A stretch of 20,430 bases of DNA from a virus: positions 1-20,430 of the IMG/VR virus record IMGVR_UViG_3300025889_001196; one strand, 5' to 3'. The position numbers and the translations under genes were made by a program. The notes beneath the pieces are model-generated. The model was not told the origin of the DNA, made no database searches, and saw nothing but the letters and a program-made list of their open reading frames with translations. This document shows positions 1 to 20,430 of the stretch, one piece after another (position 1 is the first letter of the stretch; every line of letters begins with the position of its first letter).

Positions 1-108
1 ACGATTGAGGATAAAAACGCGCTGCGGAATGATGTCGACGCCAGCGTCGTCGCGCGCATTGCCAATCAGGTAATGTCGGGTGATGCCGAGGCGCTCGAAA
101 AAAACTAA
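1..108 (+). CDS. Tail assembly chaperone, C-terminal end (gpG-like, partial)
   Basis: The window opens inside a reading frame whose last 35 residues are visible, ending TAA at 106-108. The fragment is acidic and helical in character (for example VARIANQVMSGDAEALEKN). By position, directly before the tape measure gene, and by the frameshift site at its end, this is the upstream (gpG-like) product of a tail assembly chaperone pair. In that family a minor share of ribosomes slips back one base and makes a longer gpGT-like fusion that escorts the tape measure protein during tail assembly. The 5' end lies outside the window, so domain and length cannot be checked. Assignment rests mainly on context. 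Confidence 0.75.
   Translation, partial: TIEDKNALRNDVDASVVARIANQVMSGDAEALEKN
99..105 (+). other. Programmed -1 ribosomal frameshift site (A AAA AAC)
   Basis: The zero frame reads GAA AAA AAC TAA, so A AAA AAC is correctly phased as X XXY YYZ, with the stop codon as the very next codon. Slipping back one base opens the -1 frame from 105 to a stop at 300-302. Two weak stimulator candidates are visible: a Shine-Dalgarno-like GAGG at 88-91, and a short stem TCGGC (114-118) with GCCGA (144-148) starting 8 bases after the site. This arrangement directly before a tape measure gene is the classic signature of the tail chaperone frameshift. Confidence 0.88.
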
Positions 109-302
109 GAGAGTCGGCGGACAGGCGCTTTCGTTTTGTGCTGGCCGAAAAGCTGGGGATGACCGTCTCGCAGCTCGAGGCCGAAATGTCCGTCGATGAG
201 TTCATCGAATGGTCAGTATTCTTCACCATGCAGGATGAAGATTACAAAAAGCAACGCAGCGAGGCGATGAGTGGCAAACCAAACCGTCAAGGTCGTATTT
301 GA
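105..302 (+). CDS. Tail assembly chaperone, -1 frameshift extension (gpT-like)
   Basis: The -1 frame entered at the slippery site encodes about 65 further residues and ends TGA at 300-302, overlapping the tape measure start by 32 bases. The translation includes LAEKLGMTVSQLEAEMSVDE followed by FIEWSVFF. This fits the gpT-type pattern of a LA-x-x-x-G-x-T segment, a short helix, a Ser-x-x-E turn and an aromatic E-W. That resemblance makes the extension look like real coding sequence rather than chance read-on. It has no convincing start of its own, so it is expected only as the C-terminal part of a fusion. Identity of the family is from memory of the pattern. Confidence 0.8.
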   Translation, partial: LRESADRRFRFVLAEKLGMTVSQLEAEMSVDEFIEWSVFFTMQDEDYKKQRSEAMSGKPNRQGRI

Positions 303-3300
303 GGGCAAGGACCAAACGTCCAAGGCCATCAAGTCGCTCAATAGCAACCTCAACAACGCCAAAAAAGCGGTCGATAGGATCAAAAGCAGTCTGGGCGGCA
401 TGACCGGCGCCCTGGGTGCTGCTGCCGGCGCTGCCGGTTTCGGCTTGCTGGCGAAAAACGCACTCCAGACCGCCGACTCGCTCGGCAAAACCGCCACAAA
501 ACTCGGCGTCACAACGGATCAACTTTTTAAATTTCAGACGCAGGCGGAGCTTGCGGGTATCTCTACCCAGACCGCAGACATGGCGCTCCAGCGCTTTACC
601 CGGCGAACCGCCGAGGCCGCTGCCGGTACTGGCGAAGCGAAAGCTGCCCTAGAAGAGCTGCGAATCGATGCGGCAAAGCTCCAGGCGTTACCGCTAGATA
701 AGCGAATGAAGGTGCTGGCCGACGCATTTGCGGAAGTCAAGAACCCGGCAGATCGTCTGCGCCTGGCGTTCAAGCTGTTCGATTCCGAAGGCGCTGCCAT
801 GGTCAATATGCTGAAGGACGGCAGCGGCGCGCTCATTGATAGCGAAAAGCGGATGAAAAAGCTGGGCATCACGGTAGAGCGAGATGCCGCTCCAAACATC
901 GAGGAATTCAACGACGCGGTTTTTCTGCTAGGCCGAAGGGTACAGGCGGCAATGATAAACGGGCTGGGGAAAGCGACCCCGGTCATGGAAAAGGTCGCCG
1001 ACCGGCTTGCAGAAATGGCGGTTCCGCTGACCGGCAAGCTGCTCGACGGGCTGGATTGGCTGCTAAAAAACCTAGATAAGATCACCAGGGCGTTCAAGCT
1101 GCTGATTGCGGCGATGGTTATCTCTAAAGTCGTGCAGTTCACGACTGCGGTTCTCGCGCTAGTAAAAGCGCTCGGGGGCATGGCGGTAATATTAGCGGCC
1201 CTCGCGAGCCCGATTGCCCTTTTAATTGCTGGAGTAACCGCTGCGGCCGCGGCGATTTATGCTTTCCGCGAGGAGATCGGCGACGCAATCGATTCACTCG
1301 ACGACTATCTCGGCATCACCGATAAGGTCGGGAAGGCCGTCAACTTTTTCAAAGGCATTCTGGGCGACGCCGAGGATCAGGTCGAGGACAACACCGACAC
1401 AACCAAGAAAGCGACCAAAGAAACGGACGGTTTCGAGGAAGCGCTCGACAACCTCAATGACACTGTAAACACCGCCGAGCCGGTTCTCGAGGAGTTCGGC
1501 GATACCGTCGATTATGTGGCATCAGAGGAGATCATCGCTGCGGCGAGGACTGACGCATTCCGCGAAGCTCTCGAGGACTTGCGCGAGGCCGCTCGAACGG
1601 GCGCCGATGATATTGAGGATTTTCAGAAGGAAATCGCCGACTTCGAGAAAACGGTAAACAACACCGAGGCGACGACCGAGGATTTCAATAACGCGCTGCT
1701 GAACAGCATCGAAGAGCTGACCGGCGTGACATTTGAGGCGCGCGCAGTTCGCGAAGAAATCGACAAGGTAAAGGCGGCAATCGAAGCGCTAACCAATGCC
1801 GAGGGCGATTTTAATGAGGAGCTGGCAGTTCTGAATCGTCGCCTGGAGGAATTGGGCGAGGAGCTGGTCGAAGCAACGCGCGCAGCGGACGGGCTTACCG
1901 CATCCCAGCGCGAAGTGCTGGACGAGGTAAAGAAAAGCGAAACAGAAATCAAAAAGCTAAATGACAAGCTGGCTGATCTGAAATCGCTATATGACAGCGG
2001 CAGAATAAGCGCTCGCGAATACCAAATCGCGACCGAGGGCGTGAACGCCGAAATCCGAGAATTAAGCGCAACCGATCTGACCGGGTTCGAGCGCGCCGTT
2101 CGGGATGCGTTTAACGATACCCCGCTCGAGGAATTTCTCGAGGATTTGGATACCATCGCAGGCAGGCCCGGCACTCTGGATGCGCTAATTACTACACTGA
2201 TTGGGGAGGGCGGAGTAAAGGGGGCAATCGATAGTTGTTTCGGCACTACCCCCGTAACGGATTTTGGTGATGCTATTAAAAATTTATTTACTGGTGAGGG
2301 CTCCGCGATCGGCGGTTTTGGTGGCGCTCTCACTAGCCTAACAACGGCGCTAGGCACTTTTTTCACTGGCGCGGAAACCAAGTTCGGTCTATTTAAAACG
2401 GCGGTAATCGAGGTGCTGGAAGATATTGCCGCTGCCGCGATTGCGTCGGTCGGTATCAATTTCTTGAAAAATCTAATTCCTGGTATCGCTACGGGCGGAC
2501 TTATTGGCGGCGAAGGGTTTGCCGATGGCGGTCGCGTATTCGGGTCTGGGGGTCCGAAAGAGGACAAGGTACTGGCGCGCCTTTCTGCCGGCGAGTATGT
2601 CATCAACGCCGCGAGCGTCAGCAAGTTCGGCACCGGCTTTTTCGATATGTTGAACGACGGCAAGATGGCGATGCCCGGATTCCAGCAGGGCGGATTTGTT
2701 TCATTTGATCCGGTCAGCATCGCATTGAACTATCTGTTATCTCAAATTTTCGATCTTATTTCTAGCGTTATTTTCGGCGATACATCAACCGCCGAGAAAA
2801 TGGCAAAAATGAGAGCGGGAGCCGCAAACTACATATCAGGGAGTTTTGACGAAGTTCTAAAGCAGTTCAGCGAAAACTATGGGTTTGGTCGCGGCCTTTA
2901 CAAGCTGAAAGATATCAAAGGACCAGACGGCGGCGGGGTTAATCTCTTAGAGGGAACGATTATCCCCACCATAATGGGGGCGATTCTGCCGAAAGGTTCG
3001 GATTACGAGCGCCATAAAAAAGTTACGGACGGAATGAAGGAAATCGGTCCTGGTTTTGCCGAGGAGATTTATAACTTTCTGACCGCTCGCCTTCTAAAGC
3101 TCAGATTCGATACAGTCAATTTTAATATGGACGATCTGGTCGCCAAGCTGTTCAACGACTCGAACACTATCGCTGGCGGCTCTCTGTTTCTCAATTCTCG
3201 CCAGTTCGGTGGACCGCTGGATCGCGGACAGCCGTCAATGGTCGGCGAGGACGGTCCCGAGCTATTTATTCCGAATCGAAACGGCAGCGTCTCACCGATC

Positions 3301-3417
3301 AAGGGCGACAGTACCGATTTGCAGCGATCCATCGACGAAATGAAAGACGAAATCGTCATGCTGCGGCGGCAGCTCTCGAGGGAAATTAGTGGTCGCCGAC
3401 CCGCTGGGGTTCGGTAA
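271..3417 (+). CDS. Tape measure protein (tail length determination)
   Basis: The 1048-residue product is the scaffold around which the tail tube polymerises and which sets its length. It starts at GTG 271 behind GAGG at 261-264. Visible parts: an Ala/Gly-rich N-terminal segment near residues 45-65; a hydrophobic block around 275-332; long charged heptad-like stretches around 340-610; and a Gly-rich region near 740-790 ending in the common tape measure motif LSAGEYVINAASVSKFGTGF. Near residues 985-1010 is the recurrent VGEDGPELFIP motif. At roughly 1.5 angstrom per residue, the usual rule, the tail would be about 150 nm, which favours a siphovirus. It overlaps the chaperone extension upstream and shares its final base with the next gene. 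Confidence 0.93.
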   Translation: MANQTVKVVFEGKDQTSKAIKSLNSNLNNAKKAVDRIKSSLGGMTGALGAAAGAAGFGLLAKNALQTADSLGKTATKLGVTTDQLFKFQTQAELAGISTQTADMALQRFTRRTAEAAAGTGEAKAALEELRIDAAKLQALPLDKRMKVLADAFAEVKNPADRLRLAFKLFDSEGAAMVNMLKDGSGALIDSEKRMKKLGITVERDAAPNIEEFNDAVFLLGRRVQAAMINGLGKATPVMEKVADRLAEMAVPLTGKLLDGLDWLLKNLDKITRAFKLLIAAMVISKVVQFTTAVLALVKALGGMAVILAALASPIALLIAGVTAAAAAIYAFREEIGDAIDSLDDYLGITDKVGKAVNFFKGILGDAEDQVEDNTDTTKKATKETDGFEEALDNLNDTVNTAEPVLEEFGDTVDYVASEEIIAAARTDAFREALEDLREAARTGADDIEDFQKEIADFEKTVNNTEATTEDFNNALLNSIEELTGVTFEARAVREEIDKVKAAIEALTNAEGDFNEELAVLNRRLEELGEELVEATRAADGLTASQREVLDEVKKSETEIKKLNDKLADLKSLYDSGRISAREYQIATEGVNAEIRELSATDLTGFERAVRDAFNDTPLEEFLEDLDTIAGRPGTLDALITTLIGEGGVKGAIDSCFGTTPVTDFGDAIKNLFTGEGSAIGGFGGALTSLTTALGTFFTGAETKFGLFKTAVIEVLEDIAAAAIASVGINFLKNLIPGIATGGLIGGEGFADGGRVFGSGGPKEDKVLARLSAGEYVINAASVSKFGTGFFDMLNDGKMAMPGFQQGGFVSFDPVSIALNYLLSQIFDLISSVIFGDTSTAEKMAKMRAGAANYISGSFDEVLKQFSENYGFGRGLYKLKDIKGPDGGGVNLLEGTIIPTIMGAILPKGSDYERHKKVTDGMKEIGPGFAEEIYNFLTARLLKLRFDTVNFNMDDLVAKLFNDSNTIAGGSLFLNSRQFGGPLDRGQPSMVGEDGPELFIPNRNGSVSPIKGDSTDLQRSIDEMKDEIVMLRRQLSREISGRRPAGVR

Positions 3418-17999: not shown

Positions 18000-18240
18000 C
18001 GTTTTTGAAAAAGCCGTAATTATTGATTCCAAAAAGGCAGCGCAGGAGGAGTGGCAACAAATGCCCGAGTTTGTGCAGGAAAAGCAGGAGCCATACTCGC
18101 AGATCATTTTCCGTTTTGAAACTGAGCAGGATTTGATCGAGTTTTCAGAGCTGATCGGTCAAAAGCTAACCAGCAAAACCAAATCGTCATGGCATCCTTT
18201 TCGTCCGCACCGCGACCCGAGCAGGAAGGTGTACCGATGA
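17989..18240 (+). CDS. Small protein of the 'TKSxWxP' phage type, linked to base modification
   Basis: The 83-residue protein contains YSQIIFRFETEQDLIEFSEL followed by IGQKLTSKTKSSWHPF. The pattern 'i.frF.t.eD...Fa.LIGq.lT.KTKSiW.P' is one I recall in small phage proteins found near DNA-modification genes; no biochemical role is known to me. GAGGTG at 17979-17984 is its ribosome site. Its stop overlaps the glycosyltransferase start (ATGA), so the two are translationally coupled, which supports a joint role. The fold looks alpha/beta, like a small ferredoxin-type domain; this is a guess. Confidence 0.65.
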   Translation: MKNDVFEKAVIIDSKKAAQEEWQQMPEFVQEKQEPYSQIIFRFETEQDLIEFSELIGQKLTSKTKSSWHPFRPHRDPSRKVYR

Positions 18241-19097
18241 ATCCTCGATATCCGGTTTTTATTGTGTCTAAAGGGCGATGGGCAAATATGCTCACCGCTC
18301 GAGCGCTGGACGAAATGAGCGTACCGTATAGCCTTATCGTCGAGGAGTCAGAGCGAGAGCTTTACGCATCGCGATACTCATGCCCGATTCATGTTTTACC
18401 GCAGACATATCTGGATAGCTATGAAACTTGCGATGACCTTGGTGATAGTAAATCTCGCGGCCCGGGCGCGGCGCGAAATTATGCGTGGGATTTAGCGGCG
18501 GCTGAGGGAGTAAAGCGGCATTGGGTCATGGATGACAACCTCGACGCTTTCCATTACTTAAACAGAAATCGGAAGTGGGAGGTTCGATCCGGTAAAACGC
18601 TTGCAGCAGCCGAGGATTTCACTGATCGATATAGTAACGTGCCGATCTCAGGTTTGAATTATTACTCTTTTTGTAAGCGCACCGATGCGGTCCCCCCCTT
18701 TGTGGCGAATACTAGGATTTACTCTTGCTTGCTAATTGAGAATGCGGCGCCTTATCGATGGCGCGGACGATACAACGAGGATACCGACCTTTCGCTGCGC
18801 GTTTTAAAAGATGGGTTGTGCACGATTCAGTTCAATGCGTTTTTGTGTGGAAAGGTCACGACTCAGAGAATGAAGGGTGGTAACACGAAAGAATTCTATT
18901 CTGGGGAGGGGACGCTGCCCAAGTCGCAAATGATTGCTGATTTGCATCCCGATGTCGCGAAAGTGGTGTGGCGTTTTAACCGCTGGCATCATCATGTCGA
19001 TTACAAACCATTCAAGAAAAACGCACTTATTCGGATTGTCGATGTGCCGGAGGGTGTAAACGACTACGGAATCTTTGAAGCTGAATACGATCAATAA
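18237..19097 (+). CDS. TET-associated DNA-base glycosyltransferase (TAGT / GREB1-related)
   Basis: ATG 18237 is chosen because GGAAGGTG lies six bases upstream and the product opens with the family start YPVFIVSKGRW; an in-frame ATG at 18189 would add 16 unrelated residues. Over 286 residues the family motifs appear in order: GPGAARNYAWDL with RHWVMDDN (a DxD-like metal/nucleotide-sugar site, residues ~75-102), a NTRIYSCLL segment (~156-164), RWRGRYNEDTDLSLRVLKDG (~172-191), CGKVTTQRMKGGNT (~203-216) and RWHHHVDYKPFKKN (~252-265). Members are predicted to transfer sugars to hydroxymethylated or otherwise oxidised bases in phage DNA, protecting it from restriction. No TET dioxygenase, methyltransferase or hydroxymethylase is seen in the window, so the acceptor base is unknown. 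Confidence 0.8.
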   Translation: MNPRYPVFIVSKGRWANMLTARALDEMSVPYSLIVEESERELYASRYSCPIHVLPQTYLDSYETCDDLGDSKSRGPGAARNYAWDLAAAEGVKRHWVMDDNLDAFHYLNRNRKWEVRSGKTLAAAEDFTDRYSNVPISGLNYYSFCKRTDAVPPFVANTRIYSCLLIENAAPYRWRGRYNEDTDLSLRVLKDGLCTIQFNAFLCGKVTTQRMKGGNTKEFYSGEGTLPKSQMIADLHPDVAKVVWRFNRWHHHVDYKPFKKNALIRIVDVPEGVNDYGIFEAEYDQ

Positions 19098-19922: not shown

Positions 19923-20430
19923 ATGATTAAAGCAAGTTCCGACCTAAGCAAGCTCCAGCGCAACATCCCGAAGATTCGGAAAAAGCTAATGTATGCGGAG
20001 AGCGAAGCGCTAAACCAGACCGCGAATATCGCAGCGAAAGCGCAACGCGCGCAGGCCGACAAGATATTCGACAGGCCGACGCCGTTTCTGCTGAATGGGA
20101 TATTCAATCCGAAAGGGAGGTTGGGGTTCGTCGGGATATTCTCGAGATTTAACACGCTGCGCGCCGAGCTGATACCGGGCGCGCCTCGAGGCCAGTTCCG
20201 CGCTGGCGGAGAAAGGATCAACAAGGTCATCGCGCTGCAAGCGCTCGGCGGAACCAGAACGCCACCTAAGCGAGCGCTGCCCGTACCAACTGCTAAAGCG
20301 CGTCGCAACAAATACGGCAACCTCTCGCGGACCTATATCAAAACACTGCTGGCGAAAGACAACCACGTTCAGCTCGGATTGCGCGAGGGAGTTCAGCCCG
20401 GCATCTATCGTCGCGAAAGTAATGGGCGCC
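19923..20430 (+). CDS. Probable virion/tail-completion protein, N-terminal part (partial)
   Basis: The frame starts at ATG 19923 and is still open at the window end, with 169 residues visible. The start IKASSDLSKLQRNIPKIRKK is followed by ALNQTANIAAKAQRAQADKI, then FDRPTPFLLNGIFN. The 'aLN.TA..v.......i..f.RPTPfT.n' pattern is one I associate with gpZ-like minor tail or tail-completion proteins that join head and tail. No strong Shine-Dalgarno sequence is visible. If right, structural genes begin again here, after the early block, and the order gpZ-like - (major tail) - chaperone - tape measure would fit the continuation at the other end of a circular or permuted genome. Confidence 0.55.
   Translation, partial: MIKASSDLSKLQRNIPKIRKKLMYAESEALNQTANIAAKAQRAQADKIFDRPTPFLLNGIFNPKGRLGFVGIFSRFNTLRAELIPGAPRGQFRAGGERINKVIALQALGGTRTPPKRALPVPTAKARRNKYGNLSRTYIKTLLAKDNHVQLGLREGVQPGIYRRESNGR

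Follow-up and report, generated by a model that had tools for sequence, protein, structure and literature searches.

A conserved slip site of the lambda G/GT kind in the putative tail assembly chaperone genes of an uncultivated phage

By reading one entire IMG/VR contig of 20,430 bp (hereafter the window) and comparing it with its relatives, we find that a gpG-like tail assembly chaperone gene very probably uses programmed −1 ribosomal frameshifting at its 3′ end, as G/GT does in phage lambda. The slippery heptamer, its phase and conservation, a coding −1 frame, homology to chaperones, and the gene order are all present (Table 1). The site is clearly real and its conservation strong, but the device is a known one and the example ordinary. 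A preliminary description of the window had proposed this interpretation, which is now supported by homologues of the −1 frame, conserved heptamers, and chaperone profile matches of the G protein.

Slippage itself, its efficiency, and its role in assembly are what we infer here. Most ribosomes would end gpG at the TAA, while on A_AAA_AAC a minority, carrying tRNA-Lys and tRNA-Asn, would move back by one base and resume at CUA (105–107), adding the 65 residues of the T domain to produce gpG-T. By analogy with lambda, the tape measure protein would be coated by many copies of gpG and few of gpG-T, with the T domain recruiting major tail protein; both chaperones would depart before the tail is completed.

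Table 1. Features at and around the slip site, in window coordinates
Feature	Position	Strand	Evidence
gpG-like tail assembly chaperone gene, 3′ end: last 35 codons and TAA	1–108	+	full-length homologue (118 aa, L002/L004) matches phrog_344, phrog_16513
GAGG, possible Shine-Dalgarno-like element, 7 nt 5′ of heptamer	88–91	+	sequence; mostly conserved
Slippery heptamer A_AAA_AAC	99–105	+	X_XXY_YYZ phase; same or other canonical heptamer in 48/49 distinct proteins
T-like −1-frame extension, 65 codons (105–299) and TGA stop (300–302)	105–302	+	43 related loci; phrog_337, phrog_26456, phrog_14766; coding codon-position pattern
Zero-frame TAA stop, 0 nt from heptamer	106–108	+	flush TAA/TGA/TAG in 46/49 distinct cases
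Tape measure protein gene, GTG start at 271	271–3417	+	phrog_9483 tail length tape measure protein, E 3.5e-40

Reading frames, protein families, and gene order

The contig opens inside the G gene, so only the final 35 G codons fall within the window. Read directly, the 3′ end of the gene is ...GAG GCG CTC GAA AAA AAC TAA, with the last four codons occupying 97–108 (GAA 97–99, AAA 100–102, AAC 103–105, TAA 106–108). Every coordinate given in the preliminary description, which had pointed out a phased A AAA AAC heptamer and an immediate stop, was correct. Also borne out was a −1 frame open for 65 codons and overlapping the tape measure start. Translated from position 105, this frame reads LRESADRRFRFVLAEKLGMTVSQLEAEMSVDEFIEWSVFFTMQDEDYKKQRSEAMSGKPNRQGRI and overlaps the tape measure gene by 32 nt; a GAGG at 261–264 lies ahead of the tape measure GTG.

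The full-length G homologue matched phrog_344 (E 1.6e-9) and phrog_16513, annotated “tail assembly chaperone” (E 1.2e-7). When joined, the G-T fusion matched phrog_16513 over fusion residues 12–159, crossing the junction, with an E value of 4e-10 vs. 1e-7 for G alone. A Pfam match to Phage_TAC_13 stayed below the gathering cut-off (16.8 vs. 28.8 bits).

In the related locus L004, genes for the major head protein (capsid), head closure (connector), tail terminator, and major tail protein (phrog_1407) precede G, the slip site, T, and the tape measure gene, which is the lambda arrangement. In L004, G is thus flanked by the genes for the major tail protein and the tape measure, and the window likewise has its tape measure gene following, at 271.

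L004 has capsid and major tail protein genes, but neither was seen in the window. The contig closes with a minor tail protein gene (19923–20429, phrog_1924) and starts inside G, and its two ends, 1 and 20430, may border a single gap in the head/tail block. Elsewhere, a TET-associated glycosyltransferase gene (18189–19097; PF20691, E 3e-47; phrog_842) suggests that this phage's DNA may carry hypermodified bases.

Conservation of the slip site and the −1 frame

Within the window, AAAAAAC was not enriched (4 seen vs. 2.9 expected), and 59 of 400 dinucleotide shuffles of the window held one or more phased heptamers flush with a stop, along with comparable open frames. A single sequence is therefore not significant alone, and it is conservation in relatives, rather than window statistics, that shows the site to be real. 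Searching with the −1 product returned 43 related IMG/VR loci. A broader search guided by profiles confirmed 307 candidates; 80 of them were kept. Heptamers were tabulated for these kept loci, more distant loci, two bacterial scaffolds, and the window, which together gave 49 distinct T proteins. Because these were sampled by similarity to the window's T and include many close relatives, they do not represent 49 independent events. Near-identical annotated phages were not found, and a scan of genome contigs yielded only four relatives.

A canonical heptamer stood in phase before the gpG stop in 48 of these 49 proteins: A_AAA_AAC in 44, G_GGA_AAC in 3, and C_CCA_AAA in 1. The heptamer has therefore been either kept or exchanged for another canonical one. 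The stop was flush with the heptamer in 46 cases (44 TAA, 1 TGA, and 1 TAG). The G_GGA_AAC sequences form one well-supported clade (100/99) nested in the A_AAA_AAC tree, near the window's own clade; here three bases changed and the zero-frame Lys became Gly, with slipperiness retained. Across 18 representatives, the slip codons were solely AAA (or GGA) and AAC, while most neighboring codons varied synonymously. In this phage's other genes, AAA and AAG are used about equally, as are AAC and AAT.

The remaining protein comes from L092, the one close relative whose heptamer is broken (AAGAAAC; GAA AGA AAC TAA at 1491–1504). Its T frame is intact, so the mutation could be recent, the sequence could be in error, or an alternative site could be in use. 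Two distant relatives of the phage group, an Ammoniphilus scaffold (L049, TAG) and a Rickettsiales MAG (L051, TAA), carry A_AAA_AAC with an abutting stop. T homologues in Micromonospora prophages (L039 and L048, around 2970–3010, and L050) have no phased −1 heptamer, and their G and T frames are related by +1 (or −2) around GCGTACAAAAGCCTTC; these homologues therefore likely use another kind of frameshift.

The T frame also behaves as protein. Among the 18 representatives, variable columns at codon positions 1/2/3 amounted to 61/53/92% in the T frame and 64/42/97% in the G frame. In 20 diverse sequences, Leu1, Phe11, Leu13, Ala14, Leu17, Thr20, Val21, Glu32, and Trp36 of T were invariant, and conservation begins at the first post-slip residue, upstream of any possible start codon. 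T matched phrog_337 “tail protein” (E 1e-6), and its homologues in Streptomyces phages are annotated as tail assembly chaperones; among solved structures, there was no sequence match. Judged by these patterns, the −1 frame is protein-coding, conserved, and without a start of its own. The preliminary description had noted a gpT-like extension lacking a separate start codon, and the many homologues, together with candidate GTG and ATG starts that are not conserved, agree with it.

The same comparisons bear on other ways in which these frames could arise. The extension could be made by transcriptional rather than ribosomal slippage, since polymerases can slip on runs such as the A7 at 98–104. Runs typical of efficient transcriptional slippage are longer than A7, however, and the clade with GAGGGAAAC and Streptomyces phage Wentworth, which share a heptamer, keep the frame relation with no long homopolymer. 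Moreover, what is conserved is the phased heptamer as a unit, as expected for paired tRNA slippage, and we regard a transcriptional origin as highly unlikely. Less likely still is that the −1 frame is a separate gene, started internally at GTG 138 or ATG 159 or coupled to the G stop, with no fusion made. A short open reading frame does run from GTG 138, and some records annotate a stand-alone T protein. However, relatives carry GTC, ATC, or TTT in place of that GTG, one clade has Lys instead of the Met at codon 19, and T residues 1–11 are conserved upstream of both candidates. The junction itself holds no start codon, and independent translation would not need a phased heptamer.

The shuffles might also be taken to favor a chance run of A closing gpG, or one long gene split by an indel from assembly or sequencing. 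Yet the same arrangement recurs in dozens of contigs from independent metagenomes as well as in the Ammoniphilus scaffold and the Rickettsiales MAG, and the stop is retained across records as TAA, TGA, or TAG, making such an accident the least probable of these explanations, with a likelihood close to nil. Programmed −1 ribosomal frameshifting thus remains our preferred reading.

Signals around the slip site

No convincing stimulator emerged from the sequences around the slip site. A downstream stem had been suggested, and the 5-bp complement TCGGC 114–118/GCCGA 144–148 does exist in the window. Its pairing is not kept across relatives, with 5/5 pairs in 6 of 16 representatives and 1–2/5 in one clade. 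In folds computed without pseudoknots, the downstream region was no more stable than shuffles (z −0.62 and −0.01), and no covarying consensus structure was found near the slip site. We therefore rejected this stem as a stimulator.

The GAGG upstream of the heptamer is a candidate only. Its conservation is confounded with conserved Glu codons. In its favor, GAG is the sole Glu codon at the aligned position in 18 representatives, but the purine-rich stretch is shifted by one codon or missing in some relatives. Optimal spacing of Shine-Dalgarno-like elements for −1 sites is 10–14 nt, and the 7 nt seen here is shorter.

The G stop lying flush with the heptamer is a mild, slightly unusual peculiarity. 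By comparison, heptamer and stop are on average 26 nt apart in SEA-PHAGES genes and 36 nt apart in the Xu set (PRFect, PMC10885494). The T frame starts with Leu-Arg or Leu-Lys, almost always encoded as CTA A.., and this choice creates the flush zero-frame stop. CTA accounts for 11% of Leu codons in this phage, and AGA and AGG together for 19% of Arg codons. The flush stop may have been selected as part of the signal, or it may be an accident of inheritance. Both Streptomyces phage Wentworth and L129 lack it, indicating that it is not essential to the device. As part of the signal, it would act while a ribosome pauses at the stop codon, its P site holding tRNA-Asn, and that ribosome would then slip back on A_AAA_AAC. 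We consider such stop-assisted slippage rather unlikely; if it did occur, the speed of termination would help set the G:GT ratio and would make up for the missing downstream structure.

Known frameshifting chaperones and significance

The lambda G/GT system has been described (Levin et al. 1993; Xu, Hendrix and Duda 2004, as summarized in PMC5009743), and both what it does in lambda and how widely it occurs in long-tailed phages are published (PMC5009743). Shared with lambda are the order of major tail protein, G, G-T, and tape measure, a short −1-frame T extension, a heptamer at the 3′ end of G, and the absence of a separate T start. By contrast, the heptamer here is A_AAA_AAC and the G stop directly follows it; the likeness to lambda drawn here is one of arrangement. 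This heptamer had been called canonical, which holds for its pattern; as a shift site, however, A_AAA_AAC is weaker than A_AAA_AAG in E. coli (PMC5009743). Such weakness agrees with lambda, where the GT:G ratio is known to be low.

The g-t genes of the haloarchaeal siphoviruses HCTV-1, -2, and -5 use the same two heptamers found here, A_AAA_AAC in HCTV-2 and G_GGA_AAC in HCTV-1 (PMC5009743); their hosts are archaea, and the comparison concerns the frameshift device only. Genes 21 and 22 of Streptomyces phage Wentworth (MH019216) have a homologous T domain, an in-phase G_GGA_AAC, and the same gene order. Wentworth differs in that its zero-frame stop lies further downstream and that two separate tail assembly chaperone genes are annotated.

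For this group of uncultivated phages, our reading would provide a correct annotation as gpG and gpG-T, where gene callers would drop or truncate T. Such genes could also be found by the simple combination of a heptamer and an abutting stop, and the flush stop itself poses a small question about how the G:GT ratio is set.
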